64,000 nucleotides of DNA from Antedon bifida. Its lineage: Eukaryota > Echinodermata > Crinoidea > Comatulida > Antedonidae. Where the stretch lies: contig OY727103.1 of assembly GCA_963402885.1 (NCBI GenBank), positions 7,540,501 to 7,604,500 on the forward strand, read 5' to 3'. Positions 1 to 60,300 of the stretch are shown in pieces. The notes below the pieces were generated by a model that was not told the origin of the DNA, did no database searches, and worked only from the letters and a program-made list of their open reading frames with translations. The position numbers and the translations under genes are program-made. Every line of letters begins with the position of its first letter. Position 1 is the stretch's first letter.

Positions 1-3000
1 ACCGTACACCTTCCTTGTGTTGAATGCGTTGACAACTGTCATAAGAACGGTCACGTTGAAAACTAGTGTCATGTGTACAGAAGCTGCAGAACGAACACCT
101 GTTGTCTGTCCATTATCGATATCAAATAACATTTCATTATCACCTGTAAACAAAAAATATTAATAGGAACGATTTATCGCAAATTATTTCCTTTGTGATT
201 AATTGTATATTAGGAATTAATAACAAATTGTTTAGCACTTTTCCAAACTGATAAGAGCACATTAAGATAAAATTGTCACAAAATATTCTAATCAGAAAAT
301 AGATCAGTTTTCAACCTCTCAGGGTTGTTATCAAGATCATTATAATTAGCGCCATAACAGCAACATGTTTAGTCTTATAATTAACTAGCGCTTACTGAAC
401 TGAAGTTTCAAAGACCGGTTAGGACTAATAAATTGGCAATTCATTTAATCAACAAAAAAGAAACCAAATTATTCTTACCAAGTAAATAAATAATCAAGAT
501 AACAAGAAGCTGATAACCACCATGTCCAATTATAAAACGTAGTTTGATACGAGACAACAATGGCTTATACCAGCCTTGCGACACACGTTGCATGGCTGAT
601 TGACTCGGGGTTTCTCTCATTAAAATGATAATCACAGCGCAGTTGATGATGAAGTAAAGCCAAAGAAGGTGACAAGATTTCAATGGTGTTCCCTAAATAA
701 AACATTAACAAGTTTCAACAGATGTTTCTTTTCTTTTGCTGTTTGTATAGATTGTGAGGAGTTTGGTGGACATTGTTTGTTTGTTTCTTTATTTCCATTC
801 ACAAAAACATAAACATACATAAATAATCATTACAAAACAAAAGAATGGAAAGAGGGAATCTCTGAAGCACAGCTTATAATAAGTAGAAACCCCCTGTTAC
901 AAAACAATTTATAAATATATATAAATAGAAATATGAAAAAAAGGCACAAGGGCATATAGGTAAAAAATACAACTTTTAAGAAAATGCAAACAATCTTTTT
1001 TGTTTTAACAACAAAAAATGATAGTTTTCTCAGAGATTGAAATGTAATTGTTCAGTTTTAATCATTAAAAAAGGGGAGACATAAACAAACAACAAAATAT
1101 CTGTTTTAATCAGAGTATTGCAAAAGTAATTTATTTTTGCATTTTATTTTTAAAGTTATAGGATTCTTATGTAACTTAAGATTCCCAGGTATTTCACACC
1201 AAAGTTCAACCCCTTTACTGACTAAACTTAATGATTTTTGAGTGGTTCTTTTAAATTGTGGGTTGGACTACTGATCGTGGGTTTGAATTCAACACTTGCC
1301 GCAATGGTTGTATCTTTTGGCAAGTCACTTTACTTGTGTTTGTTTCTTTCCACCCAGGAGTACAAATGGGTACCTGGTAAGGTCAAAATTTTGCGCTGAT
1401 TACTAGCTGTATTTTTTTTCCATACGTTTTCCATACATTTTCAAAAATAATAATATGTTTCACAACATAGCACTATATATATTGTTCTGAGGTTGCAATA
1501 TATAGGCATTGTTTAATGTAATATTGTACATTAGAACTCCTTTAAAATAATCAAAGGTTTTGGAGTGACAGATTGATTTAGGCCTCTATTAATAAGACAA
1601 TTGAGATAGTTACTGGATCTTACAACAGAATATCTATATGGCCAAAGTATGTATAACACATGAATATCCTGTTCATTAAAAACATGTAACATTTCAAAAG
1701 GCATTGTAGGATAGAGTGTCAATAGATGGCAATAGTTTGAGTCATGGAGTAGTGTGCCCTAATATGTATGTGTATTCGAGATAGGAGTATGCATCCTGGA
1801 CTTTTTGCCCCAGGGGCGTTTCAGCTCCGGAATGCATAAGCAGGTTTCGTATTCTTGTATGGAGATCTCTACAGGAATATTAATGTTCTACCTTTCTATT
1901 TTGGAGAGGGCGCTGTCAGAATGGCGGCGCCCTGTGTAACCTTTATAACCATGTTATTTTCAATGCATAATTGACAGACAGGAGATTCTTGTGTTATAAG
2001 TTCTTTGTCCCCTTAAAGATTATCTTCAGGTTGACCACATAAAACCCTTAATTTTGCCATCGTAAAGTGTACTGTATATGAATGCAACGTATGAGTTTTA
2101 CTGTAAATAATTAGATATACTTACTGTTGAACATGCTATACCTATTATTACTGCCAACACAAGGGAAAATGCCAATGAGAGTTGGTACTGCAAGTATTTT
2201 GCTGTTGAATCCCAAATATGGCGCCCCCACATGACAGCTTGCTTGATGCTATGGAAGCTGTCATCTTGCAGGATTATATCTGCTGCCCCCTTGGCATCTA
2301 GTGTTGCAGTGGTACCCTGTTAACATAATTATTAAGAATATCACTCTCATATATTCAAATCTGGCGCAATAATCAATGGTTTAAAACATAACTGATCCTT
2401 AATCAGGTGAAGCAAAGCTTTGTACCACAGCGGCAATGGTTTTCTTAAAAATAAAAATCATGGTACTGTGAGAGAGGACTTGGGATTGTAAGCAAGCAAG
2501 CTCTAATCTAATTGGTGGATCTGATTACTGATCTGAATACAAGGTCATAAATAATAATTTGCATTTAATATACATACAAATGTGCATTCAGTATGTACTA
2601 TACCTTAAGTTGTCAAAATTTAGCATCTACTGAACCATTGATTAAGTAATAGTGTCTTACCATTGCGAGACCAATGTGTGATTTTTCAAAGAGAGCAGCC
2701 TCTTTACTGCGACGTCCTGTTACAGCTAACACCTCACGTCTGCTAGCACCAGTTACACACCCCACTATGCACTCCTTATCATCAAAGTGAGCTCTTGAAA
2801 GAACCTTTAATCGCTGCATGATATTGTACTGAATGAAAGCAGAATATCGGTGATGTAGGTGGTCTTGGTGATGGCAGTGATACAGGTAGTGATGGTGATA
2901 CCAGTGCTGATGATGATGATGAAGTTGGTGGTGATGCAGGTAGTGTTAGTGGTGCAGTTGTTGAAATGAGGGTGTTGCAAGTGGTGATGATGATGATGAT

Positions 3001-6000
3001 GGTGGTAGATGATGATGGTGGTAGGTGATGATGGTGGTAGGTGATGATGGTGGTAGGTGCTGATGGTGGTGGTAGGTGGTGATGATGATGATGACGGTGG
3101 TAGGTGATGATGGTGGTAGGTGATGATAGGGGTAGGTGATGATGATGATGGTGGTACGTTATGATGGTGGTAGGTGCTGATGGTGGTGGTAGGTGCTGCT
3201 GATGGTGGTGGTAGGTGAGGATAATGGTAGGTGAGGATGATGGTGATAGGTGAGGATGATGGTGGTAGGTGGTGATGGTGGTGGTAGGTGAGGATGGTGG
3301 TGGTAGGTGCTGATGATGGTAATGGTGTTATTGATGTTGATGCTGGTGATAAGGCAGTTGATGATGATGATGATGATGGTGTTGGTGATGATGATGACGG
3401 TGGTGATGATGATGACAGTGGTAGGTGAGGATGATGGTGGTAGGTGATGATGATGGTGTTATTGATGTTGATGCTGGTGATAAGGCAGTTAATGATGATG
3501 ATGGTGGTGTTGGTGATGATGATGATGACGGTGGTGATGACGGTGATGATGATGGTGCTTTTGATGATGGTGGATGATGATTTTAAACTTGAGAGATGAT
3601 TGACAAAACAATGAAAGTGGTTGTAAAATAAATAAATAAATAAAATTTGAAATTAAAGAATATCCATAAAAAAATACTTTGTGTACCATCTCAAGCAACA
3701 TTATTTTTTTCAATAAAAGTAAATATACATTCATTACTAATATTTTAATGAACAGAATCTTATACCTTGCCTCTTGATTGTGATAAACTTTGATTAAAAT
3801 CACGGCTTTCCATCGCCAAGTCATCTGTGTTTACATTTAGTATACCTGTATCCACAGCAACATCATGTGCTGCATTCATATCATCACCAGTGAGCATTCT
3901 AACATTGATGCCTCCATCTTGGCAAGACTCAACTGCAGATCTGGACTGTGTTAAAAAAACATACATTTGATCAATTTGATTGTAAAGATAATTAATTTGA
4001 TATCAAGATATTTAAATTCTACCTCATAGTGAATATATTAAAGTGATAAAATCTTTTTTTCTCTATACTTACGTTACTTCTGACTGGATTAGACAGAGCA
4101 ATAACAGAAATAAACGTCAAATGCGACACATTGTCATATTTGGTAGAATACTTCAAACTTGGTTTTTGTGCGAAGTCTCTATAGGCTAGACACACCATCC
4201 GCAACCCTGGTAACGACATCTCTTTAAACGTTGTCTTCAACTCATCACGCAGCTCACTGGTCAACTCTTGAGATTGTCCTTCAGCATCCAAAATGTAAGA
4301 ACAACTGGAAAATAGATTTGAAAATGTCAATGAATGAAAATAATCTCTCCATTCAATGAACACATGATATTCTTTATTGAATCATTTATTTTGGTTTTTA
4401 TTTGTTTATCAACACAACAATTTGCTATCAATCATTTGTCAAAGGCTAGGACTGGTTGGATTTCATTGCAATATTTTTTATCAACATATACCGTTGTACA
4501 ATAAAAAATTGTCATGAGCTTGTTGTTGAATAGAACCATTGAATAGAAATGTTACTGTTGAATAGAACAAAATAACCAATGTTATAATAATATGAAATGA
4601 ATCCATCAAATAACATGGATATACTTAATGGGTGTGTTATCAAAGCTATATAAGATTGAATGGAATACCTATTGAATATAATTTCAACAGCGCCTTTAAC
4701 ATACAGTCGCCATATAGGTTCAGCATTTGCATCCTCTGTTTCAATGAATGTACCCATGAATCTACTATTCGAATCAAAGGTGTAGGCTTGTTCCAGTCTT
4801 TCTTCTGGCCATTTATTACGAAGGGTCCTGTAGCAGATCTCGCCGATAAAGTGTAACAATGCACAGTCGGTTTGGTCTCCAACTTGATGCAATTTGTTTC
4901 CAATTTGCTAAAAAAAAATTATGAAAAAAATGTTCTGGAGGTGCCAGTTGAAAAAACCAGTAAGAAAATTCCAGTTAAAGCCAGTTAATTGCAGTAACTA
5001 GTTTAATGATACAATAACTAATTTAAACTAGTAAGTATTAAAAAATTTCCAGAGATTAAAGTCAAAGTACCAGTTAAAACCAGTTTACAACATGTCATTT
5101 TCCTTTATTACTTGCGCTTGATTTATGTGCAATAGCATAGCATGTATTATATATACTGTTAGACCTTCAAAATATTAAATAAATTTTAATGATGCAATAC
5201 ATAGTTATACTGCCCTCACATCACTTACATATATCTGCGTGGCATATTCACTGTTAACTGCAATACTTTCTTGAAGAAGCTTCATGATTTCTTGGTTAAT
5301 TTTTCCAAGATATCTGTTGGCGCAAGGTCCAATTGTTTCGGACATACTCTGTCTTTTCTCAAAGTCATGCAGTCTGTCAGCGATGTAACATTTTTTAACC
5401 TCCATATTGCTTTGTGTTAGTACACCCGTCTTATTGCTACAAATACATGTGATGTTACCCATTAGCTCACATGCATCTTGGTTGCGAAATAATAAATTGT
5501 CTTCCAACATCCCCTGTAAATAGACATACATAAGGAATAACTTAATGATATTATATAAAAATCTATTTTTGCACTATATGTTCTTTGACTTGGATCAACA
5601 GCAGCAGTGAATCAAAATAGCACTGTATAGGCCAACATATAATAATAACAGAACATGTGAGGCCTTCTGTTGCATGATTTCTATTCTATATCCAAATATA
5701 CAGTAACATAGCACATTTATTAAGATTGAATTTAGCTAGTACAGTAGAGTCATTTGCTTTTGGTACAGTAAATGAATGACACAGTAATTTAAGTGTGGTT
5801 CCCACTAGAACCCAATGCAGCAACGTATAGACGCAAAGTGCTGTATTTTGTAATCACAAGTGGGAACTGACAATGCAGGTGCTGCAAACAATAGCTACAG
5901 GAAATCAAATCACGCAACAACGCAAGAACACTGGAAAACATAGTACAGCACGTAGCCAAGTATGCATGTCAAAGTCTATGACAACTAACATTGACATGCA

Positions 6001-9000
6001 ACTAAGCAGGTTTGATTTGACACAGACGGAGGCAAACCCAATTATTGGAAGGGTATTTTCTTACGTTCCGTAGGTTGAGGTACGTTGCGTCGCTTGTGGG
6101 AACCACGCTTTACTGAAAGACTAATCTGTGTATGCATGTAAGCACAATAGGCCTCTATACTATAGAGATCTGTTGATGTAAAGTTCGGTTTCAAACCAAA
6201 CAGAGCATAGCTTGCGATGTCGAGAAGTAGCTTCTTGTTTTAAAATCTAAAGACACATTTCACACCTTTTATAGCTTGCTAACTTTTTTTTGTATCTTTG
6301 ATTTACTATCCCAAATTGATGTCGCTATTGATGTACTTTTACTTAAAAATAACTATCTTCGTAAAAATAGGGTTTCACCTTTTTAGACTCTACAACTCAA
6401 CAACCCAAACAAGTTTATTATCAATAAAAGCGTTTCAACAGCTATCTTTTCTGTCTTTATTTTTTTTTGCAAACTATCGAAATAAAGTGCACACATTACT
6501 GCTAGTAAACTGTGCAGTTTATGAAAATATTTTTGTAGTTACCTTTTTAAAAATATGGTACAGGAGTCTATTTTCAGCAGGTATTTCATGATTTGCTATC
6601 AGATAGGATACAAATCTGGAAAACTTTCAATTGGTATGTTTTTCCAAAGGAGATCGTTTATATAAAGAAAACAGACTTACCTTTAAGGAATGTGCAATAG
6701 CTCTTTTAACAACTAAAACTTGATTTCTTGGGCGGATAAATATATACAACATGAGTGATATGATTAAAAACTCTACATAGTCCTTTATGTAATACGAAGT
6801 CCAATGAAGTTGTAGTCTTACAAACACTTCAATACTAAAACGAATTGTGGATAATAGGAAGAATATAACCACCACAGACACACCTAAGGAAAATAGAAAA
6901 CTACAATTATTAATGTTTTGAACTGATTTATGGTGCAATGAGTAAACTTTAAACAGGCAAATATTATCACCTTCGCTGAAGAATGGATTAATTTGAAATG
7001 TTTACCAGTAAATGAAAAGCAAGAGAAGAAAGTCCAATATTGTTTGTGAAACTTTAGATACATTTAGACCGACAAGACCTTCCTATATTAACTACAGCGC
7101 CAATGCTGTTACGTTGTAGTATTATGCTCCTTATTGCCGCCATACTTATGTTTGCTGTTCTCCAGTTGTAGTTACAGTAGGAGTTATTAAAAGTTGATCA
7201 TTACAGTCATAACCGTGTCTCTCGTACGATTACTGTGTGTGGAACATTGACCTCAACACTGGCGCAGGAAAACTAGTTCGATAGGGTTTTTTGTGGTGTA
7301 TATCGTTAGTGACGCCATCAAGTGACACTATCCGTGCAGTGGTTTTATAAAAACAATTAACATAAAATGTAGTCAAGTACAGGGCTTCATAAAAAAACAT
7401 AATTTTAAGTTGAAGAAATCTTCATTTAGATTTTTTATTTGCACACCTGTAAAGTTAGACAATTATTTAAACTACAGTACTATAAGGTGGTGTGGTTTAA
7501 TTACAGTTTATTAACTAAAAGTAAGCTAAGGGTAAACATTATTGTCACTTCATGAAAACAAAAACTACATTTCATGCTATAGTCACATTTTTTTAGGGAG
7601 AATGACAAAATTAGCAGTAGAATTACATATTGTCTAATCATCACACCTGTTTATGCAAATTATTTAGCAAGTTATTTGGTAATCATACACACTTTGTTAA
7701 TTGCAGTGAATATGTATGTAATATTTCTATACATTGAAACAACCTAAAATCATACATTATTGCAGGCAAAAAATATAGTTACTGCAATAACAGCAGTAGA
7801 ACATTTGACATGATCCCTTCATTCTTACCTATATATTTGGTAATATTTGTAATTTTCTTTAGTTTTGAGGTAAGCACTGCTTTATTGCGAGACTCAGCTT
7901 GTGGAGGAATCAACGAATCCGTTTCATTTCGTATAGAATTGACAGCATCCCCGGTTCTGCTATCTAGCGAATCTAGCACGCCATTGCTTCCAGAATCAAC
8001 ATTATCTGGCGAGTTATCATTCGTTCCCGCATTCGTTTCATTTTCCTCCTCTATTGTCGCTTGTTGTGTTCTACGACGCTTCCTAAACTTTTTGCGGCCA
8101 TCATCGTCATCATTATTTTGACGACCGTAATTTCTTGAGATGCTACGGACTACAATACGTGGAATTCCAACAGACTTGGCATCTATTTTGAAATACAGCA
8201 AGTATTATAGTTTATAAATAATAGACATTTAGTTCCGTATTCAAATTATATTATTCTATACTGTCATACATACTGTATACATCAAAGAAAGGTCAACGTT
8301 TTTATGCTATATCATTATAAAAAAATATTTTTCACAAAAAAACGCCGCTTGACTTAACAGTTTGAATAGCTGTCCTTCCTTTAGAAATAATGATTTATCA
8401 TCAATTATTTTTGTTTAAAAATCAGTAGTAAACATTTTGTGTAATATGAGTATAGTCTGTCCTACTCTACAGAACAAAAATATTATCATAAACTATACAG
8501 TACTGTACATATTCCAGGGTAGGGGCATTATTTCCTTTGGTCATAGTGATCAGCCAACATACTAGGTATAATGATGTAAAATTAAAAGTTAATAAATTAT
8601 ATATTTCCTCCCTGTTAGTATTTTGTATCAATATTACAACAAAAAAAGAATTATGAAAATCTAACTTATTTTTGACTTTTTTTTTTTCGTTTTCAGCCAC
8701 GAACAAAGTAAACAAATTGTGTCCTAAGTCGTAAATTGTTTGAACTACGCCATTTTTTGATAAAATAATTACATACAATTACAGTTTTTAGAATTATATA
8801 TTTTGATTATCAACATTGTAAATGTCAATAAAATATGATACTACATATTTATTAAATAAAAAGTGTTTATTTAACCTCATTCAAAGAATTTCAATACATT
8901 ATTTTGAGAGCCAACGTGACACTTCATGGCACACGCTAGAAAATGTTTAGAGGAAGGAATTATTTGACCATTATTCAATGATAAAGTGATGGTATTTATT

Positions 9001-12000
9001 AAAAATTAATCTTTAAAGATAATTGAGCAATGCACAGTATAGCAAAAAAAGTAGGCCTACTGATGGATTCATAATAAAATGACTAAAGCTCTGTCTACAC
9101 TATCAAACTTTATGTGACAACAAAAATGTGACATATCCAATAATATAATAATAGTTCAGTACATACAAATATAGGCATAAAAACATCAAATGAGTATAAA
9201 ATGTACTATAAAGATTCACATCTTGTTAATGTGCTTAGTGAGACTGAAAGCAAAGGTAAACTTTGTTGTAATAATTTGTTTGTAAATTGTTTCAAGCTTT
9301 ATGTGTTTTTCCGGTTATGTTGTTTGAGTACCGTACGAAAAAAAAAAACAAAAAACAAAAGGCCTACACTAAAATATTTAAAACTACGATATAAAAATGA
9401 TCACTTTAAAAGCATATTAAAATGTTAAAAATTTTAAAATTTCCATTATTATGTTTGCATGTCATTTTGAGCAAAAAAGTAAAAAGATAGGTCATTGCTT
9501 TTAGGAGCAGTACATAAAATATACAATTAAAATCTAAATGTAAAACATTTTAAAATGATCACTTTTAAGCTTAAAGACTGTTAAAATTACCAATTGTGTT
9601 ACTATATAATGTAAAAAGATACAGTAGATCTGAAAATCAAAACACATTTTTTTCTATAGATAGTGATCCTCCTTAAAATTCTTACTCAACATTAATAATC
9701 ATGATTTATATAATAGTCCATATTATTATAGTAGTCTATCATTACAATATTGGTGTTTCTTTTTCGGTGCAAAGGAAATACACAACACTTTCATGTGATC
9801 ACTTCAGAGACTTTCAAGGTTATTTCAACCTGATGTTACTTTTACTGCTGGTCTGTGGCAAAAGTCATGTGATGATACAAAACCACTCATCACATGATCT
9901 TTACAAAGTTTGATGAGATCTGAAACATTGGCCTAGTTTTAATGTTCCTGTCACAAAAAAAATACCAACCAGGGCTGTTCATCTTGGAGCTAAATTTAAC
10001 TCAGGACAATTAGACTAGTAAGTTTTTTTTTAAATAGCCTGAATCAAATTTTACTCACCAACAACAATGGTTTAAAACAAACCATAGTTTTTTTAATGGC
10101 CCAAATTAAATGTTACTGGCCAACAAAAAAGGTTTAAAACGTACAAACCATGCAGTTTTTTTTTACTGGCCCTAATTCAATTATACTGTCCAAGAAAAAT
10201 AGTTTAGAACAAACCATGTTTTCTCGTTAGACCGAGGTTCGAATCCAACTCTCGCCGCATTGCTTGTATCCTTAAGCAAGATACTTTACTTACGTTGGCC
10301 TCTCTCCACCCAGGTGTATAATTGGGAACCCGGTTAGATCAAGACACAACTTTGCGCTGATTACTAGCTGCATATATGGGAGTATGTTTCCATAGGTGTT
10401 TGATCAGGAAAAGACTGGGGTAATAATGTTCAGCACATTGAGAGCTTGCTTATATGCGCTATATAAGAATGAACTATTATTATTATTTTCTGTAAACAAA
10501 AATGACTGGGCAAAATGCTCATGCGGTTTCAAGACCCGCATCATGAATTTTACTGGCCCGCATTGACCAGTGGACCTGTATGAAATCAAAACAATTGGAA
10601 AGCACCATTCATTTTATCTTTTTTTCATTTGGAAAAGTGTTTTATGAAAGAAATAAAAATATTGTGTGAAATTATTTTTTTTACATTAGAAACATAATTT
10701 AACATAACATTCTGACCTTCATAATCTCCAACTGTGTTCTTGCCTACAACTGTGACGACAAGTTTCGTACTTCCCTTCCTCACTACAGATCCTAGAATTT
10801 AAAGGTACAAATTTGAATAATGAATATATTGTATTAAATGGGGGGGAAAAACAGATTGCTGGTTTAAATGTTATGATTGGCAAAATGGCGTATGCTGAAG
10901 ATTAATTTTAGTATGAGCGGGGTGTCGAAATGAAAGCATTTGTCGATGAATATAAAAACAATAGGCTTTCTTCAAAAATTTGTTAAAATAAAACATTACA
11001 CATAAAAAAGTTCAATATCAATATTACAGCATTTTTACAATTTTTATTATGTTATTTTTGAACTCACTTCTTTGGGCAATGTGTACAATTTTTGTCAGTA
11101 CATTTCTTTTCATACTGGGATATAGAAAAAATATTTTTTTCTCTTCTTTTTACGAACAGATTAGTTTCTTTTTTTTTTCATCTTTACTCATATCATTAAA
11201 AGGGAAGTTTTTAAATGACATAGCTTACTTGCATATTCTAATATATTTCTTTCCATACTTAGTCTTCTATCTTCAAAGGGCCAGTTTTTAAATTACATTA
11301 TTGTTTGAAGGTTTTCATGGTGAAATTAAATGTTGATATAAAGTTTGCGGTACACCACATGTATTAGTTCTGAAAAGAACTGTTGAGTTTCTTGACGTTT
11401 CGATCAATATGCTTTGATCGTCCTCACGCAAACTTCATATCAACAAATTACATTATTATTATCATACTGTATCTATTTTTTTTTCATATTCAATCCTCTC
11501 TTTAAAGGGACAATAAATTATATTATTATTAATGTGTCTATTTCTTTTTCATACTCACTCCTTAAAGGGGCAGTTTTTTAAATACACAGCTTACCTGCAT
11601 ACAGAAATGGATCAGTTTCTTTCTTTTTCATCTTCACTCCTGTCTTTAAAGGGGCAGTCTCATTAACTTCCAAATCCTTTGCTGATATCATTATTCCATC
11701 AGCTGGAACCACATCACCTACAATGTAACGCCAACACATTCATAGTTATACATAGCATACTCATTAACCTTAAGTAATGGCTATATGAGCAATTTAGCTA
11801 AACCCAGGGGCCCTCAGGCTTACAAGAGCACCTGAGCAGGGGCTAGAAGAGAAACATGCATTGAAATATGTCCAAAAATGTTTTAAATAGGTGCCTCATG
11901 CCTCTGCATTACATCACTGAGCAGAGATACAGTTCTTTAAATATAAATATCAGTGATAATATAATTAATAATGAAAACAATTCAAGGTGGTCGAGATCTC

Positions 12001-15000
12001 ATTTTTTTTATACCCAAACAGTAAAATGTTAGCAACGCCATCATAGTTCCCTCTGTTACTGCTTGTGCACATACATAATATGAGTTAAGTAGATGAATCT
12101 AGGCCTAGGGTGATGTGACGATAATAATCTTTCATTACAGTCTCCCACAGTGCTCAAACAGTACACAGCACTGATAATTACAGTATTTCATTCCATGTAT
12201 CTTCATTGAATGTACAGGATTTGCTGTCAACAACATGTAAGAAAAATAACTCATCACTACTGGAATTTATGATAGTCTTCAGATCATTATGGGTTTCCCT
12301 TGTGTCTTTCTTATCATGCCTTGTAGTGTTTGATGCTTTTAAATGTACAGTTAGGCCTAGGCTAATTTATTTTATCAACCCTCATGGGTGAAATTGGTAT
12401 ATGATTGATGATGTTGAAATAATATATAAAAATGTTTAAAAGTCACCTAGCAAAGAAAATATACTGCCAATTTGCATTAAAAACATCACTCACACCTACT
12501 TTAAATTTCATTAAAATAAACTTAATAATGCACCAAATTTACAATCAGGGTACAGGCTGTAGTATTTATTTTGCTGTAGTTTAAAGGGGTTTGTAGTAAA
12601 AGGGGGATTTGCCTGAACCATAAGAAATCGCCCTGCCTCCTGTTTTAGCGATTATTCACTTACCTCGGTACAATGAGACCACATCTCCAACAACAAGCTT
12701 TGTAACTGGAATCTCTTTACGCAACCCATTACGCGTAACAAACACTTTCGCAGCTAGAGCCTCCTTTCTAAGTAGGCGATTTATAAGAATCACTATTCGT
12801 TCCAACAAGATGTCTTGTACAATGTCAAATAATAGAATGATAACTGTTAAAACAATGCTTGTGAGGGAAAGTGGCCATTCTCTTGATATATCTGAAAAAA
12901 AAACAAATTTGAAAACACCATATATAATTTACAACTATATATGCCTAGCCTAACATAGTTTTGATGACTGACGTTATCATTTTATGGTTTTTCTTTAACT
13001 ATCCATTTTGAACCTCTGGATAAATGTAACAACCTTCCGAAATGTATCATACAAGGAAAAATGAAAACATTTATCTTTGAGTTTAACATATTGAAAACAA
13101 TAAATATGTATTACAGTAAAATACTGCACATATTTTTTTTCCCATACGCATCCAAATCGAGCACAAACTCGCCAATTACAGGATGGATAAACTATTTTAT
13201 ATATCTTTTTTTATATTATATTTTATATTTTTTATATCCAAACTTTAATAGTGCTGAGACTGTGTGCTGAAGACGCTTTTATTATTCAATTAATTTGTCA
13301 AACATGGCTTGAAATCTACCTCACAGGTTCCAAAATAAACACTGTAAACAAATTACTCTGGTAATAAGTATGTTACAGCATAAACAAATTCAAATTCTGG
13401 CTATTAGTTTAAATACACTATCAGCTAATCACTTCATTATGCAATCAGGTTTTTATGTCGTAATGAACTTTTTACAGTTACTGACCTAATTGACAGCTCT
13501 GGAAAAACAAGTATGCTTAATTTCATATTCATGTGGCTAATTTAATTCATCCACAAGACATGCACCATTTGATATTCAGCAAAACACTCTTGATTAATAT
13601 GAACTATATGCTTCAGTGGACAGACTATCTTTGAGACTAAAAGCTTTCAGCTTTAAACAAATCCAAAGAAATTACAAATCTTCTACTGGATTTTACAGTA
13701 TCTTATCATGACGAGTTTGGTGATTTTCACAAACAGAAACAGAAGACAGATTTCCAGAGAAATTGGGTATCTATCTTCTATTATAATTACAGTCAAATCA
13801 AACTTTAAAAACACATTTCCTGAAATTGTTGACATTTTGGAAAAATCAATGCATATATATATATGCTTCAAAAACATTAAAGCAAGTCAATCCTTGTTTT
13901 ATAATGTAAAGATCTATGGTTAATTATGATAAAAAGAGAAAAACAATGTATCCGAAATGTAGCCTGTTTGCCTCAAATGTTTTTCACCTACACTGTAGGC
14001 CTAGGCTAGTATTGTAGGCTGTAATCCTAGTCTGGTAACTAGCTTTAACGTATGACATCACATCATACCGTAGCTACAATATGGCCTAGCCACGTATTGT
14101 CTTGCTGAATTATAGTCTTTATTTTTTGCTAGAAATCTCACCAAAATCTAATGAAAATTTCAAAATTTAATCAGGAACGAATCAGAATACATTATTCTGG
14201 GTTTAAATGTAAATACGTAATTGTACAGTATGCAAGGAAGCGAGCTCAAAAGTTAAACTTACCTTCTTTTTCCTGCAAAAATGAAACACCAAATGACAAC
14301 AGACTTAGTATTAAAACACAGACTAATGCCCAATTTTCAAACAATGTCGTAACTATTAAATTTGAAATGCTTGTTCTAGCTCTCTCAGTTTTACGTATGT
14401 TTTCTCCAAATCTCTCTCTATGCAAATGTGCGTCTGTTTCATGTATACCTAAAGTTAACAAAATATAAATACATTATTATTATTTTATTCTATTATTGGA
14501 ATTAAAAGGATAGACAAAACCTTCAGGAAATCTGGAAGATTTATTAACAAAATTTACATTACATATGTGAGATATATTGGTTTGCTTGTTGAAAAGTTTG
14601 TAGATTTTTTGAAACCCTTAAATTTTATTAACTGCCAGTGTAAAATCCAAATTTAAGAAAAACATATGGTAAACAATTAAATTAACAAAGATAAAGTAAC
14701 AAATATACAGAAACATATTTGATTAAATCATACACTGTTGTACATTACTGTATGTAGAAGTTTATGAGTCACTGCAATAAACACTGTGTATGATATCCCA
14801 AGAAAAAATATCATAAAGTGGTTTAGTAAACAAAATGTACTGCAGTAACTAGAGTAAAATATGTTAACATGGTCCTTGTACATCAATACCAATCACTAAC
14901 AGTAAATGTGTCAAACAACAACGATTGACTTTGCATTGTTTTGACAAGATTGATAGAAGGATGTCGCTATTTTAAGTGGATACTTCAATTTATTTAAAGA

Positions 15001-16915
15001 TTAATTCAATACACTTTTGTTGTTTGTAGTATTTCACCAAAAAAAAGCAATCTAGATTTGGTTAAAATGTGTACTTTAAACAAATATTTAAATGGAAATT
15101 ATTGACAGCGACGTCAAAAGGTCCTACAACATGAATAATATACATAAAACTGAAATGGTAAAATAGAATGTTGATCAGACAGAGACTAAACTCCTCCAGA
15201 CAGCACAGGTGAGCAATTAAAAAACATGTTGTTGTTGATATTGCTTTATTACTATAATTCAGACCTACATTAAGTGGAGCATGGTCACACTCATAGCAAA
15301 CATCACAGACATCACAATTAGCGAAAATATACATTTTTCAATGACAGTGAAAACTGTAAATTGAATTCTCCTACAAAATAGAAGCATGATGTGCTACCAG
15401 TGACCTTCAGTTATTCATAAAAGAGAACATTTTTTGTTGCCCAACAAGAAACATTTTTTTAAATTTTAGATTTCGTTATTAGCAAAAATTCAGATTTATT
15501 TTGTTAGTAAACTCCAAGAGACAAATCTAGCTTTTCAATTGATGAGCAATGATGGGAATCATAACAATATTATATGTAATAAGCAAAAAGGTATTTGGAA
15601 TTCTCAATGCAATTAAACGAAACAACTAGCAATTACCAATAAAATTGACCAATTAAATTCTTTTTACAGACAATTATGCTGGCTGTGTAGGCCCAACCAA
15701 TCTAATAGAATCTCGTTTTACCAGTCGTTAAAATAGATTTCCTTTAATTAAATAATTGACAGTAATTACATGCACTTAAAACAGCCTAATTTATTTAGGG
15801 TATGTTCACATTCATGGAGTTCATGCTTTAGTATGGCAAACAAGGTTATAATTAGCATCGTAACAGCAAAGTGTTCAGACTCGCAACCATCTGGTATGCA
15901 AGAATAAATTTGATTGGTTGTAGGAACATTGAGCATGACTTTCGTATCATAAGCATTGTTCACTAATCTTGTAACGTAAGTTGTCATAACAAACGAAAGA
16001 TCAGTGTGTCGTAAGAGGTGGCTTCCACTAATCTTTTTTTGGTACAGTATTATGGAGCTGCACAGCGTGTACGATACAAAAGCACACAGTACATAGGCAT
16101 GAACAGGCCCTTAAATAAGTTGAAAATGCATTTTAGATCTCATTAATGTTTTAATCACTTTGTTTTGATATCTCAATCTGTTTCATGTAACTTAACATGT
16201 TGTTTCTAAATAATACTAAAATATCCATAAAGCAGTCACATATAATTTTGAGTAAGTAAAATTGAATAGATAATATTATCAAGATGGATGTATTTTAAAA
16301 GTGTGTTCATTATTTTCTTAATTTCAACTAAAAAGAGCATTGAAACAGCAATGTCAGCAAGCCCCTGCTGAGGGTTCAATTGAACTGCCATTTTTATACT
16401 AGAAACTAGGAGAAGAAAAGTCACGGTAAATAGGTCTAATTAACCTGACTTTTCCTCTTTCATCGAAAAAAACATTTATCTATTTTTCTCTGCTTTAGTA
16501 TTGAGCACTTTTTTTATGCCTTGCATCAAGACAAAAACAAAGGTTATTATAAATTATAAAACTTAAAAATACACTGTAGAACACTTTGAGAGATATTCAG
16601 GGAACATTCCAATTGAGGGGACACTTTAAACTCAATGTGTCCTCTTACAAGGTTCTACTGTATATCATTTTGATATATAAGCCACCAGTTTGTGAAACGG
16701 TATGATAACTTTTAAGGTAGAAACATGTTTTTACCATCATCCTTGTTACTATTCAATCCACTACATAACATCTTTTCATCTCCAAACTTCTGCTGGAATA
16801 TCTGCAGAGCACGTGCAACATCTTTGACATGCATCAGCTTTTTAAGCTGCTCTTTGGTGAAACGGAATTGAGAATTGGATGCCATCATCTCATACGACTC
16901 CTGACTGGACATCAT
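1..16915 (-). CDS. P2B-type (PMCA-like) calcium ATPase homologue, predicted catalytically dead; 3' end outside the window
   Basis: Fifteen phase-compatible exons with GT/AG borders: 16735-16915, 14263-14448, 12664-12891, 11595-11717, 10717-10791, 7829-8182, 6681-6883, 5229-5513, 4669-4907, 4073-4304, 3766-3945, 2661-2828, 2125-2316, 479-692 and <1-143, giving 1001 codons. The start is the first of two ATGs at 16915; a tiny upstream ORF (ATG ATG AAC TAG) lies just before it. Order matches PMCA: cytosolic N-terminus, TM1 (exon 2), TM2 and A-domain (exons 3-5), a highly charged linker (exon 6), TM3-TM4 (exon 7), P- and N-domains (exons 8-12), TM5 (exon 13), TM6-TM7 (exon 14), TM8 (exon 15). TM9-10 and any calmodulin-binding tail lie off the left edge. 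Retained: KGA (616-618) and MLTGD (719-723). Lost: TGES is replaced by KTGV (223-226), PEGL by PRNQ with Arg435 for the Glu, DKTG by NKTG (Asn477), DPxR by NPVR (Asn697), TGDGxND by TGRRSKE (799-805), and the TM6 Asn/Asp by Tyr895/Asn899. No frameshift or stop is seen. Family membership is certain; loss of transport is inferred. Confidence 0.93.
779..905 (-). repeat. Probable non-LTR retrotransposon 3'-end remnant, antisense, in ATPase intron 14
   Basis: Read on the minus strand the stretch ends in an AATAAAG-type sequence followed by a short (AAAC)n tail, the usual look of LINE/SINE 3' ends. No coding part is visible. Family not assigned. Confidence 0.3.
1240..1440 (+). repeat. tRNA-derived SINE, copy 1
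   Basis: Contains a B-box-like GGGTTTGAATTCAAC near 1279, then a conserved core (TTTCCACCCAGGAGTACAAA at 1347-1366, then GGGTACC) and TTTTGCGCTGATTACTAGCT. The same order of blocks occurs at about 10215 and 59380, which identifies a dispersed family. This copy lies in the intron between ATPase exons 14 and 13 and is diverged. Confidence 0.6.
2840..3585. repeat. GAT/GGT-rich minisatellite in ATPase intron 11
   Basis: About 740 bp built from GATGATGGTGGTAGGT-like units with variable 3 bp expansions. Near 3310-3365 and 3446-3500 a non-simple block (GTTATTGATGTTGATGCTGG) recurs about 137 bp apart, so there is a longer period above the short one. The minus-strand ORF through it (poly-His) is a by-product of the repeat. 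Confidence 0.9.
5792..6109. mobile_element. 318 bp MITE, PIF/Harbinger-like, in the intron between ATPase exons 7 and 8
   Basis: Terminal inverted repeats start AGTGTGGTTCCCAC (left) and AGCGTGGTTCCCAC (right, reverse complement), and a second inverted block GCAACGTA lies inside both. The element is flanked by TTA on both sides (5789-5791, 6110-6112), the 3 bp TWA-type target duplication of PIF/Harbinger elements. No transposase ORF, so it would be non-autonomous. Superfamily assignment is inference from the TSD. Confidence 0.6.
10021..10200. repeat. Three degenerate tandem copies of a ~65 bp sequence
   Basis: Each copy runs poly-T, a GGCCC-like segment, AATTxAATxTTACTGGCCAA and GGTTTAAAACAAACCAT. 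The sequence resumes after SINE copy 2 (TTTTACTGGCCCGCATTG near 10549), so the SINE inserted into or beside this array. Confidence 0.55.
10215..10492 (+). repeat. tRNA-derived SINE, copy 2 (best preserved)
   Basis: Shows the B-box GGTTCGAATCC near 10235, then a CTCTCGCCGCATTGCTTGTA block, the CTCTCCACCCAGGTGTATAA core, GCGCTGATTACTAGCTGCAT, TATGCGCTATATAAGAATGA, and a (TTA)n tail ending near 10490. A clear A box is not seen, so the 5' end is uncertain. It lies in the intron between ATPase exons 6 and 5. Confidence 0.75.
11085..11660 (-). repeat. Degenerate tandem array derived from the 3' half and donor site of ATPase exon 4
   Basis: Read on the minus strand, the functional copy (exon 4, after about 11656) runs ACTGCCCCTTTAAAG, GTGAAGATGAAAAAGAAAG, TATGCAG|GTAAGC, TTTAAAAA. 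Diverged versions of the same order follow downstream in intron 4: CCCCTTTAAGG near 11565, CCCTTTAAAG near 11500, GGCCCTTTGAAG near 11275 with ATGCAAGTAAGCTATG near 11225, and CCCTTTTAATG near 11200. Some keep the splice-donor-like segment. A 115 bp hairpin element interrupts the array. Confidence 0.6.
11331..11445 (-). mobile_element. 115 bp hairpin element with a hammerhead-ribozyme-like core
   Basis: Ends are near-perfect inverted repeats: TGTTGATATAAAGTTTGCG (11331-11349) against CGCAAACTTCATATCAACA (11427-11445). On the minus strand the interior reads GTGAGGACGATC, loop, GATCGAAACGTCAAG, resembling the CUGANGA / helix II / GAAAC order of a type I hammerhead. The first C of CUGANGA is G here and the helix II register is off by one, so it is probably a degenerate ribozyme, as in Penelope-like elements or retrozymes (known association; assignment inferred). 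Confidence 0.45.
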
Positions 16916-28441: not shown

Positions 28442-28482
28442 TATAAAACAAACATAAGCCTATCGGGTGGTCTGCTTCAGTC
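28442..28482 (+). promoter_or_regulatory. Putative sulfatase core promoter (TATA plus initiator), conserved in all five units
   Basis: TATAAAA at 28442-28448, 63 bp before the ATG, is followed by TCAGTC (28477-28482), which fits the TCAKTY initiator. The A of the initiator is 37 bp from the TATA start, slightly longer than usual. The same arrangement starts at 33228, 38015, 43133 and 47921 in units 2-5. Promoter function is inferred. Confidence 0.45.
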
Positions 28483-54300: not shown

Positions 54301-57300
54301 ATGGAAATGTGTTCGTTTTCTGGTAAAGCTGCACTTATTACAGGTTAGTAACATTAAAATCCATTCCAACATTTACTGTAGGGTATGAATCTACTCTCTA
54401 ATAAGCCCTATTTAGGCCTTTGTTATAAACATGTAATGGGGGTTCTAGGCAGGCCTAACCTAGCCTACTACTAGCTAGGTTTTAGGCCTAGCCTACTACT
54501 AGCCTAGGCTAGCTAGGCTAGAGCCCTGTTTGGCCCCCAGTGGCTAGCTATAGCTAGGCTAGGCTACTATTTAGGCCTAGTAGTAAGCCTAGTACAGTCA
54601 AAGCGCCCTACCTACAGATAGGCCTAGCTCTAGTCTAGGCCTAGGCCCTACTATTTGTTATAATAATATTCGAGTCGAGGCCCTTGCTTGGGGTCCTCCT
54701 AAATACCAAGACCTACCAAGACCTACCAAGACCTGTCAATTTAAAGTGTTAATTTAACGAAATATGATATATATAGACTTCTAATAGCATTTCCAACAAT
54801 AAAACCTCAATTTTAGCGCTATATAGACACCAAAAATGTTAAATAATCGACAAGCTTCGCGTTCGCGAAACGAACTGAGTTGATGCATACATTGCGTCAC
54901 AAATGTCCGTATTGCGTCAACTAGTATGACCAACCAAGACCTACCAAGACCTGTCAATTTAAAGTGTTATTTTAACGAAATATAATATATATAGACTTCT
55001 AATAGCTTTTCAAACAATAAAACCTCAATTGTAGCGCGATATAGACACCAAAAATGTTAAATGTAGGCCTACGACCCAGTAGGCCTATGACAGGAGAACT
55101 GCGTCGAGTGTCAGTGAGCCATACTAGTTGACGCAATACGGACATTTGTGACGCAATGTATGCATCAACAACTCAGTTCATTTCACGAAGCTTGTCGATT
55201 ATTTAACATTTTCGTAACATTTTTGGTGTCTATATCGCGCTGAAATTGTTGGAAATGCTATTAGAAGTCTATATATATCATATTTCGTTAAAATAACACT
55301 TTAAATTGACAGGTCTTGGTAGGTCTTGGTTGGTCATACTAGTTGACGCAATACGGACATTTGTGACGCAATGTATGCATCAACTCAGTTCGTTTCGCGA
55401 ACGCGAAGCTTGTCGATTATTTAACATTTTTGGTGTCTATATCGCGCTAAAATTAAGGTTTTATTGTTGGAAATGCTATTAGAAGTCTATATATATCATA
55501 TTTCGTTAAATTAACACTTTAAATTGACAGGTCTTGGTAGTTCTTGGTAGGTCTTGGTAGTTCTTGGTAGGTCTTGGTATTTAGGAGGACCCCTTGCTTG
55601 GGCCTTTTAGCCCTCTAGAGTCTAGGCTAGGCCTATCTAGCTAGGTACAGGCCTAGGACTACGTAGGCCTCTAGTACTACTAGTAGTAAGGCGGGCCTAG
55701 CTAGGTAGTAGGCAGCAGGGCTCTACTATAGGCCTAGTAGTTTTGCACTCCCACCATGGATAGATTTTGACTAACTTGATCGTGGATAGCACTTGGAGAG
55801 CTATAAATGTTACCTCTATGGATAGCACACCTTGAATTATTAAAATGTCATGGTTTTTAATTCGAAGTGATTAGGATTCCGGCAGAATGAACGCAATTTA
55901 TTGGTCAATTGAAAATCGCTCATACATGCACATTTTTATAACCTCATGTACACAGTTCAACACCAATTTTGACGACTGGTTGGCTGGCTTAGTGGTGTGG
56001 TATTGCGGCTAGGGGTCTAAAGGTTTTGCTGGTCATTGTAGGTTCAATTCTCGATCAATTTTTTACATTTTTTTTTATTCACAAAATTGTATTTGATTGA
56101 ACATTGTCTTTATTCATTATCGTCTTTACCCACCATATTGCCTAGACGGATGTTTTTTTTTAGTTTTAGGTTTTAGTGAAAAGTTTCTGTCGGAATCTGT
56201 TACAATGGGCAGTTGAGTTCAGGTGCCGGAATCCTAACCATGGCATTTTTAATTTTAGGTGCAAGTTCTGGTATTGGAGCAGCAACTGCAAAGGAATTTG
56301 CATTAAGAGGATGCTCCGTGTCTTTGATTGGTCAGAACCAGTCCAACTTGGAGGAAACGTCTAGAGCATGTCAGGAAGCTGGACTTTCTCCAGATCAGGT
56401 GAGAATGTTAACTAAGATTTACTTGAAAGGAAAGGGAATAAATAAAGAGTAGTAGTACTAGTAGGCCTATGTGATTGAAACAAGACAATGAACAACTTTG
56501 AACTGTTTTATTTTTAAAATGTGTGTTTTGTTTTCCATTTCTATTGCGAAAATAGTAGTATTACTTATTAGTTTTAAAATTAGTTTTGTAATAGCGTTGA
56601 GTCAACTTTTATGTTTTTAGTTCTTAATCAAATATGAAAAATGTTTTAGTATCAGTTTTTATTTCCCATTGTGTATTAAATTTTGTAATCTGTATGGATG
56701 CACCATCTACGCATTGTGTGCCACTGTTAAAAATGTGTAGTTCCAAATAAATATTATTTATTATTAAGATTAAGAAGATGAGTTTTTGGCGTCAAATCCA
56801 TATGTAAATATATTTTATCAATCATCTTTAGAAAGGTTAAAAAAGTTATTTAAACTAAATTTATCCATGTTTTTCAGGTTTTAATTCTGCAAGGTGACAT
56901 GTGTAAAGAAGATGATGTAGAACGTTTTGTTAAGTCCACTTTAGATCACTTTGGACGACTTGATATATTGGTAGGATATCTTACAATCAAATGGTGTAGT
57001 AGTCCATGGGATGGTGTAGTAGTCCATGGGATGGTGTAGTAGTCCATGGGATGGTGCAGTAGTCCATGGGATGGTGTAGTAGTCTATGGGATGTTGTAGC
57101 AGTCCATAGGATTGTGTAGTAGTCCATGGGATGGTGTAGTAGTCCACGGGATGGTGTAGTAGTCCACTGGATGGTGTAGTAGTCCACGGGATGGTGTAGT
57201 AGTCCATGGGATGGTGTAGTAGTCCATGGGATGGTGTAGTAGTCTATGGGATGTTGTAGCAGTCCATAGGATTGTGTAGTAGTCCATGGGATGGTGTAGT

Positions 57301-60300
57301 AGTCCACGGGATGGTGTAGTAGTCCACTGGATGGTGTAGTAGTCCACGGGATGGTGTAGTAGTCCACGGGATGGTGTGGCAGTCCATGGGATGGTGTAGT
57401 AATCCATGGGATGGTGTAGTAGTCCATGGGATGGTGTATTAGTCCATGGTATGGTGTATTAGTCCATGGGATGGTGTAGTGGTCCATGGGATGGTGTAGC
57501 AGTCCATGAGATGGTGTAGTAATTTATGGGATGTTGTAATAGTCCATGGGATGGTGTAGTAGTCCATGGGATGGTGTAGTAGTCCATGGGATGGTGTAGT
57601 ATTCCATGGAATGGTGTTGTAGTCCATGGGATGGTGTTGTAGTCCATGGGATTGTGTAGTAGTCCATGGGATGGTGTAGTAGTCCATGGGATGGTGTAGT
57701 AGTCCATGGGATGGTGTAGTAGTCCATGGGATGGTGTAGTAGTCCACGGGATGGTGTAGTAGTCCACGGGATGGTGTAGTAGTCCACAGGATGGTGTAGT
57801 AGTCCATGGGATGGTGTAGTAGTCCATGGGATGGTGTAGTAGTCCATGGGATGGTGTAGTAGTCCACGGGATGGTGTAGTAGTCCATGGGATGGTGTAGT
57901 AGTCCATGGGATGGTGTAGTAGTCCATGGGATGGTGTAGTAGTCCATGGGATGGTGTAGTAGTCCATGGGATGGTGTAGTAGTCCATGGGATGGTGTAGT
58001 AGTCCACGGGATGGTGTAGTAGTCCACGGGATGGTGTAGTAGTCCACAGGATGGTGTAGTAGTCCATGGGATGGTGTAGTAGTCCATGGGATGGTGTAGT
58101 AGTCCATGGGATGGTGTAGTAGTCCACGGGATGGTGTAGTAGTCCACTGGATGGTGTAGTAGTCCACGGGATGGTGTAGTAGTCCACGGGATGGTGTGGC
58201 AGTCCATGGGATGGTGTAGTAATCCATGGGATGGTGTAGTAGTCCATGGGATGGTGTATTAGTCCATGGTATGGTGTATTAGTCCATGGGATGGTGTAGT
58301 GGTCCATGGGATGGTGTAGCAGTCCATGAGATGGTGTAGTAATTTATGGGATGTTGTAATAGTCCATGGGATGGTGTAGTAGTCCATGGGATGGTGTAGT
58401 AGTCCATGGGATGGTGTAGTATTCCATGGGATGGTGTTGTAGTCCATGGGATGGTGTTGTAGTCCATGGGATTGTGTAGTAGTCCATGGGATGGTGTAGT
58501 AGTCCATGGGATGGTGTAGTAGTCCACAGGATGGTGTAGTAGTCCATGGGATGGTGTAGTAGTCCATGGGATGGTGTAGTAGTCCACGGGATGGTGTAGT
58601 AGTCCACGGGATGGTGTAGTAGTCCACAGGATGGTGTAGTAGTCCATGGGATGGTGTAGTAGTCCATGGGATGGTGTAGTAGTCCACAGGATGGTGTAGT
58701 AGTCCATGGGATGGTGTAGTAGTCCATGGGATGGTGTAGTAGTCCATGGGATGGTGTAGTAGTCCATAGGATGGTGTGTGGTAGTCTGTGAGATGGGGTG
58801 TAGTTAGTCTGTGAGATGGGGTGTAGTAGTCTGTGAGATGGTGTGTAGTAGTCCAGGGGATGGTGTAGTATTAGTATAGTCCAGATTGTTTTTTATATTC
58901 ATTACACTATTAATTATGTAAATTAATTACAATGAAACCTTACAAAATGGTGTATTTTTGTAATTTTAGGTTAACAATGCTGGAACAGCAGCCAAAAATA
59001 CACTTGAAACAGCAACAATGGAAACTTTTGATCAAGTCTTTAATCTCAATGTTAGATCTGTTGTACAAATTACTAATCTTCTTGTGCCTTCATTAATCAA
59101 ATCTAAAGGTTAGTTAAATGTAACTGATTGTCAGTAGGTTTTTAAAAATATTCTTTGACTTAAACAGATAAATTTAATGGTACAGGTAAACACCTGGGAC
59201 TACTGTTTTTGGATAAAGATCATCTGGGAACATTGCGTCAGGTGCTGTATAGATTTATTGGTGCGGTCAAATCCCTCCCTGAGACTACTGTTCTTAGATG
59301 AAAGATCATCTAGGAATATCGCGCCAGGTGTAGACTGAGAGCCTGTAACGCAGTGTGTTGGAAGTTGGACTTCTTGCGAGATCAGGATTTTGAGTCCAAT
59401 GCTCATGGCATTGCTTATATCCTTCGGCAATATACTATGTTTGCCTTGCCTCTCTCCACCCAGGTGTACAAATGGGTTCTACACTGATTACTTTGCAACA
59501 CTATGGAAGTATGTTTCCAAATGTTTGATCAAAATAACCAGGGTGATAATTTGAAAGCGTCATTTGCACATTATGTATTTAATTACCATTGAATTTGTGC
59601 TATATAATTATTAATACAGTATTATCTATTATTGCCACACTGTCAATGTCCACCTTTTATCAAAGTATCTGTCCAGCAGATACAGTAATAATTTATTCAG
59701 TAGTAAAATTGTTTTCTGTTTTAGGTTCAATTATAAATGTTTCCAGTGTTTGTGGAACAAGGGCTGTAAGTATTATTTGTGATTTCATAATTGTAATGAA
59801 GAAAACAAATGACTTTTATATCTAAGACTTTTAATTTCTTTTTAAAACTTTTAAGAGTTGCTCAACTGTAGGAAGGTACAACAACCTATATAGTTGTTTT
59901 TCCAGGTTTTTATACATAAACAGTGTACAATAATTCTTCATCATGCATTTTATGTGTACAGTTTTTATGTACAGAGACCATTGGCTTAGCATCCATCCTA
60001 TATGAAAGACAATAAACATATTCTGCCTAAGGGCACAAACAAGGTGACACAGGCAGTTCCTGAACCCATGCCTCCTCATATACAGTGTGGTTCACTGCCA
60101 TTGCACCATATCATTCTCTTACATTAAATTACTATGTTTACATACAGGTTCCTAATATGATAGTTTACAACATGTCAAAGAGCGCCCTCGATCAGTTCAC
60201 ACGAGTTACAGCACTTGGTACGTATAAATGATTTGATGATGATTATTATATTGCGCACATACTACTGACGGTGCTCAATGTGCTTATATTGACCTTGTAG

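Follow-up and report, generated by a model that had tools for sequence, protein, structure and literature searches.

The window, i.e. the whole stretch of DNA that was analysed (64,000 nucleotides of Antedon bifida, C16:7540501-7604500), carries a PMCA-like gene on its minus strand, here named W, which was rebuilt exon by exon. The genome examined comprises 315.6 Mb in 27 contigs, C16 being the contig with the window. Within the window W consists of 15 exons, running from 16915 to 1, with GT-AG borders at 14 of 14 introns and 1001 open codons free of stops. The last of these exons runs past base 1. A sixteenth exon, supplied by the neighbouring stretch L009, begins about 0.7 kb past the window edge and ends 906 bases past it (C16:7539595). 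Spliced in silico, the 16 exons form a single stop-free frame for a predicted protein of 1104 amino acids. The first-pass annotation had described a full-length gene of 15 exons in one frame; the frame, the 15 exons and their intact splice sites were recovered, whereas the full length includes the exon outside the window. Ten hydrophobic membrane peaks are retained in a hydropathy scan, and a Pfam scan of three single-exon ORFs gave one match, Cation_ATPase, in the ORF of exon 9. The exons are listed below in window coordinates unless the contig is named.

Exon 1: 16735..16915, minus strand, start methionine, with an in-frame TGA upstream
Exon 2: 14263..14448, minus strand, N-terminal part and M1
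Exon 3: 12664..12891, minus strand, M2 and start of the A domain
Exon 4: 11595..11717, minus strand, A domain, with KTGV (11646-11635) in place of the pumps' TGES
Exon 5: 10717..10791, minus strand, end of the A domain
Exon 6: 7829..8182, minus strand, long, charged A-M3 linker
Exon 7: 6681..6883, minus strand, M3-M4, with PRNQ (6731-6720) in place of the pumps' PEGL
Exon 8: 5229..5513, minus strand, start of the P domain, NKTGV with its Asn codon at 5435-5433
Exon 9: 4669..4907, minus strand, N domain, with Phe (4778-4776) and KGA (4697-4689) kept
Exon 10: 4073..4304, minus strand, Arg560 equivalent (4201-4199) kept, NPVR with its Asn at 4090-4088
Exon 11: 3766..3945, minus strand, first TGD (3891-3883) kept
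Exon 12: 2661..2828, minus strand, Lys684 equivalent (2777-2775) kept, TGRRSKE (2720-2700) in place of TGDGTND
Exon 13: 2125..2316, minus strand, hinge and M5
Exon 14: 479..692, minus strand, M6-M7, two Ca2+ ligand positions occupied by Tyr (656-654) and Asn (644-642)
Exon 15: 1..143 in the window and on to C16:7540423, minus strand, crossing the window edge
Exon 16: C16:7539828-7539595, minus strand, outside the window

The intron directly before exon 12 contains a minisatellite rich in ATG/CAT triplets (2981-3581). A recent array of five tandem sulfatase gene copies (28401-50739, plus strand) lies beside W, with first ORFs at 28442, 33228, 38015, 43133 and 47921 and 97-99% identity to the first unit; the first copy matches Pfam Sulfatase and Sulfatase_C. 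An ORF at 56180-56449 on the plus strand matches short-chain dehydrogenases (Pfam adh_short, 8.4e-8), and a second minisatellite at 56991-58870 consists of 93.6 copies of a 20-base unit (92% matches), with several minus-strand frames open. On the other side, about 7.6 kb downstream of W, a plus-strand ORF (L009, about 1042-1409) resembles histone H2B. In 501 bases of the mitochondrial COX1, AAA occupies both sites at which Asn is expected and ATA occupies sites at which Ile is expected, a pattern that fits code 9, the mitochondrial code of echinoderms, and supports an echinoderm source.

The codons of W were re-read. As the first-pass annotation had stated, the codon of the phosphorylated Asp is AAT, the Asp of DPxR is replaced by Asn (AAT), TGDGxND reads TGRRSKE and TGES reads KTGV, the two helix-6 ligands are Tyr (TAC) and Asn (AAC), and KGA as well as the first TGD are kept. 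The replacement of PEGL by PRNQ was likewise found, one codon away from the position given for it, since 6734-6723 reads RPRN. W thus has replacements at the aspartyl-phosphate site, in the dephosphorylation motif, at the Mg2+ site and at all three side-chain Ca2+ ligands.

Among the best 60 of 87 solved sequences, the closest relatives of W are PMCA2 (E 3e-140) and PMCA1 (E 3.9e-140). The plant P2B pump ACA8 matches with E 8e-79, the remaining P-types among the matches listed are weaker, and no TMEM94-named sequence occurs among these best 60 of 87. The top NCBIfam model for W is TIGR01517 (PMCA). Its sequence thus identifies W as a P2B ATPase (PMCA) by descent.

Two other P2B genes are located on C16, both outside the window. 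PMCA-A is a pump with all motifs (PEGLP, DKTGT, TGES, KGA, DPVR and TGDGTND), modelled from 2944333 to 2919957 on the minus strand, without exon 6 and the C-terminal end. The coding stretch of its exon 6, KSVLQAKLTKLAIQIG, occurs in seven similar copies with a spacing of about 73 bases (L021, C16:2926091-2926573). The other gene, B, lies on the plus strand at C16:9.677-9.691 Mb, 2.1 Mb from W. Its exons 4 to 16 form a single open frame of 868 residues with a stop directly after helix 10; exons 1-3, expected upstream and excluded from the model, did not show up when the N-terminal part of PMCA-A served as query. The motifs of B are NKTGV, TGRYIGD, DRVR, PSSLP and LWSYLLVN, of which NKTGV, TGR and the helix-6 Tyr/Asn pair are common to W. 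B was considered as a second working pump, which its motif sequence rules out. Between its exons 11 and 12 the model has an additional in-frame exon of 48 bases (L051, 5573-5620) that is absent from the models of W and PMCA-A. Across the exons compared, the reading phases agree in W, PMCA-A and B; exon lengths of 203 and 192 are identical in all three genes, and lengths of 180 and 214 in W and PMCA-A. The matching phases and lengths indicate that the three genes arose by DNA duplication and not by retroposition. Searches with W, B and the N-terminal and A-domain part of PMCA-A, the counts of which are lower bounds, returned no further gene with P2B-like scores; weaker P-type matches are located on C7, C8, C10 and C13. 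Against TIGR01517, PMCA-A scores 1083.4 bits (1027 aa, without exon 6 and the C-terminal end), W 483.1 (1104 aa) and B, of which exons 4-16 (868 aa) were scored, 360.9. W and B are both below the equivalog cut-off of 507.05 bits.

For a residue-level comparison, W, B, PMCA-A and PMCA2 were aligned with six P2B pumps from contigs that are labelled bacterial or archaeal and read as ciliate genes. Seven contigs with such labels (L054-L060) each carry a P2B pump, and in all seven the longest ORF is found under the ciliate code; they are probably chromosomes of rumen ciliates binned as prokaryotes. In the alignment 287 columns are identical across the eight intact pumps. W keeps none of the nine core catalytic and ion residues vs 131 of 254 other invariants (Fisher p=0.0034). 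For B the corresponding figures are two of nine and 115 of 218, a difference short of significance (p=0.094). Another 10 motif columns that are invariant were assigned to neither group. With a core set of eight residues, one-sided tests gave p=0.0040 for W (0/8) and p=0.023 for B (1/8). The phosphorylated Asp of DKTGT, present in 8 of 8 intact pumps, is Asn in both proteins. The Glu of TGES is Thr in W and Arg in B, and the Asp, Asn and Asp of TGDGxND are Arg, Lys and Glu in W and Arg, Gly and Asp in B. The Ca2+ ligands of PMCA2 described in PMC12488499 (E412, N869 and D873) correspond to Arg, Tyr and Asn in W and to Ser, Tyr and Asn in B. According to the same paper, the deafness-linked exchange E412K largely reduces transport by PMCA2 (PMC12488499). 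Of the residues examined together with those for PtdIns(4,5)P2, N841 is replaced by Ala in W and Gly in B, and Q837 is Gln in W and Leu in B; for PtdIns(4,5)P2 residues 344, 347 and 351 the alignment is no guide, because it omits exon 6 of PMCA-A and aligns the linker poorly.

The nucleotide-contact residues have a different fate. The suggestion of the first-pass annotation that ATP binding may survive finds support in the sequence, as the equivalents of Phe487, Lys515, Arg560, Thr353, Lys684 and the TGD are kept in W and B. A set of 14 nucleotide and motif residues is complete in both proteins (14/14). This set was picked after W had been read, and a fuller list of SERCA nucleotide contacts lends weaker support: W keeps 14 of 17 (one-sided p=0.0096) and B 13 of 17 (p=0.058), so that B alone misses the 5% level. 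Phe487 and Arg560 are described as nucleotide contacts of SERCA in PMC3203174. The losses include a change of the Glu442 equivalent to Asp in W and B, of the Lys492 equivalent to Arg in W, and of the Arg678 equivalent to Gly in B.

Both models, W and B, end after helix 10. The tail of PMCA-A, which includes the putative calmodulin domain ELRRGQILWMRGITRLQQQ, matched only its own gene (L020) when used as a query, and nothing in L009, L010, L051, L053 or the window gave an E below 0.1; this search covered about 19 kb downstream of W (L009, L010) and 0.8 kb downstream of the last exon of B. The next matches had E values of 0.11 or higher, led by those in sulfatase genes. The C-terminus of W, ...EVEVHV (L009, about 8995-9045), may be a PDZ ligand. 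In the neuroplastin-contact segment 1017-1038 of helix 10, as named in PMC12488499, W is identical to PMCA2 at 10 of 22 residues, B at 9 of 22 and PMCA-A at 12 of 22. Judged by the equivalog cut-off, the catalytic residues, the Ca2+ ligands and the calmodulin tail, W would not be classified as a working PMCA.

With the motif columns masked, W and B formed a group (UFBoot 100, SH-aLRT 99.9), and four constrained alternatives were rejected (AU p 0.0119, 0.00097, 0.0070 and 0.0016). The tree was calculated under one substitution model, leaving out L055 (92.6% DNA identity to L054), with L061-L063 unused. Branch lengths were 1.16 substitutions per site for W, 1.24 for B, 0.36 for PMCA-A and 0.20 for PMCA2; long-branch attraction is a possible cause of the grouping, though the tests reject the alternatives. 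Eighty invariant columns are changed in both W and B, in 20 of them to the same new residue, including D477N, T481V, D801R, N895Y and D899N. Catalytic columns show identical replacements more often (5 of 8) than the other columns do (15 of 72; p=0.02). Independent inactivation of W and B was considered and is disfavoured by the AU tests on the masked alignment and by the replacements shared at catalytic columns. The shared replacements imply a common ancestor that would already have been dead, so that all constraint between W and B would be constraint on a non-pump.

Such constraint was evident in the comparison of the two paralogues, which share 31.8% identity over 811 codons. They differ at 0.688 of the 96 fourfold sites, near the saturation value of 0.699, at 0.536 of first positions and at 0.398 of second positions; the 95th bootstrap percentile of d2/d4 was below 0.40, with saturated replicates (37.6%) counted as zero. 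This comparison suggests that W and B have been under long purifying selection as non-pumps and are not in decay. The fast evolution of W relative to PMCA-A and PMCA2 would fit a decaying pseudogene. Against this stand the gene's freedom from stops and frame breaks and its uniform GT-AG introns, the open frame of B over exons 4-16 with the replacements it has in common, and second positions that are constrained while synonymous divergence between W and B is near saturation. Neutral decay simulated on W at 0.05 substitutions per site introduced stops in 100 of 100 runs (mean about 6), and at d=0.01 25 of 100 runs were stop-free, so that the intact frame is compatible with a function lost very recently. 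Taken together, we consider a pseudogene highly improbable, and the earlier reading of W as a pseudoenzyme kept by selection gained support from the intact frame and splice sites, the key substitutions common to B, and the constrained divergence of the pair.

An error of assembly or consensus, or RNA editing that masks the real protein, is a negligible prospect. The Asn codons of the phosphorylation site, DPxR and helix 6 could be recoded by A-to-I editing, while AGA in helix 4, CGT in TGRR and TAC in helix 6 are beyond such editing, and several of the changes recur in B, 2.1 Mb from W. A sequencing error is very unlikely in view of how many changes there are and of what kind, and of a second gene sharing several of them. 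A transporter or ion conductor with altered chemistry, for instance one of passive conduction or for another substrate, would agree with the ten membrane peaks and with the exchange of helix 4 and helix 6 residues for particular new ones, of which two are the same in W and B. P-type ATPases devoid of the phosphorylation-site Asp, the TGES Glu and the equivalent of Asp703 in TGDGxND are not expected to perform a Post-Albers cycle. Since these residues are absent in W and B, no such cycle is expected of them, and we regard a transporter of this kind as very unlikely. Somewhat more credit, still that of an unlikely explanation, is due to a non-pumping PMCA scaffold that makes no use of nucleotide and organizes lipid or protein partners via its membrane helices and cytosolic domains, the nucleotide residues merely holding the fold. 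The core catalytic sites are gone while P2B sequence and membrane peaks persist, as such a scaffold would require, and structures of TMEM94 are described as being without nucleotide at the proposed site, yet the measured affinity for AMPPCP was micromolar (PMC12134183). The retention of nucleotide contacts above the invariant background, significant in W and nearly so in B, speaks against a scaffold without nucleotide.

W combines homology to an enzyme with the absence of its catalytic residues and is, on this basis, very probably a pseudoenzyme. Kept by selection without the residues of a pump, W and B probably have another job, maybe while still holding ATP. On balance we favour the view that both belong to a small PMCA-derived family of pseudoenzymes that bind nucleotide and serve as scaffold or regulator, a role we infer. 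W would form no phosphoenzyme and move no Ca2+ by the usual cycle; it may bind ATP or ADP and change its shape with the nucleotide, and could thereby act as a membrane scaffold or regulator that responds to nucleotide and, for example, competes with or tunes either the true PMCA or the single-helix subunit of that pump. This regulatory mechanism is put forward tentatively, with considerably less confidence than the pseudoenzyme status. A further-reaching version appears improbable: W and B would be founders of conserved echinoderm (or wider) nucleotide-sensing pseudo-pumps, in which basic residues replacing the acidic ones that bind Mg2+ (TGR-R-S-K in W, TGR in B) hold ATP or ADP without metal or hydrolysis, as a sensor of energy state coupled to PMCA or its subunit.

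Pseudoenzymes are familiar from kinases and other enzyme classes. In open-licence PubMed Central (5.39 million papers) we found no literature joining the term pseudoenzyme with P-type ATPase or plasma membrane calcium ATPase, an absence that is not proof; the broader literature yielded comparators and no dead PMCA among the matches listed, and the term D369N was absent from the matches listed for it. An old, selected and dead PMCA pair beside a live pump would offer a direct view of the P-type ATPase fold without its cycle. The pair lets one ask whether ATP binding alone, without phosphorylation, merited keeping, and it provides naturally changed residues at positions like E412 of PMCA2, which is linked to deafness.

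W resembles PMCA1 and PMCA2 (P2B; PDB: 6a69 and 9gsd) in domain order, in its ten membrane peaks and in 34% identity. It also has most of the nucleotide-contact residues of a PMCA, and its exon phases are common to the PMCA of the same genome. Unlike a PMCA, it is devoid of the phosphorylatable Asp, the TGES Glu, TGDGxND and the side chains of the Ca2+ ligands, and a calmodulin tail was not found in the stretches searched. An inactive paralogue kept beside an active one recalls the prozyme of Trypanosoma brucei AdoMetDC (PMC5201418), a dead paralogue that regulates the live enzyme and offers a model of what such a gene could do. There the enzyme is unrelated and regulation was demonstrated, whereas for W it is inferred (PMC5201418). 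The use of a P-type ATPase module in signalling is exemplified by the P4-ATPase-like domain of the malaria parasite guanylyl cyclase, which, unlike W, keeps the catalytic Asp, apparently essential there (PMC7858053). For P4A ATPases, transport-independent scaffold functions are mentioned in a 2023 review (PMC10654040). Among the cases compared here, human TMEM94, a P-type-ATPase-like protein, is the nearest debated example that would operate without the cycle. TMEM94, also called ERMA, is not known to be an obvious PMCA paralogue. W is like TMEM94, by description, in an architecture without TGES, and the report on TMEM94 argues that it does not run a Post-Albers cycle under the conditions studied (PMC12134183). 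A role as Mg2+-ATPase is still defended for ERMA in PMC13322241. In contrast to TMEM94, W clearly is a paralogue of P2B pumps, and its genome also encodes a dead sister and a true pump.
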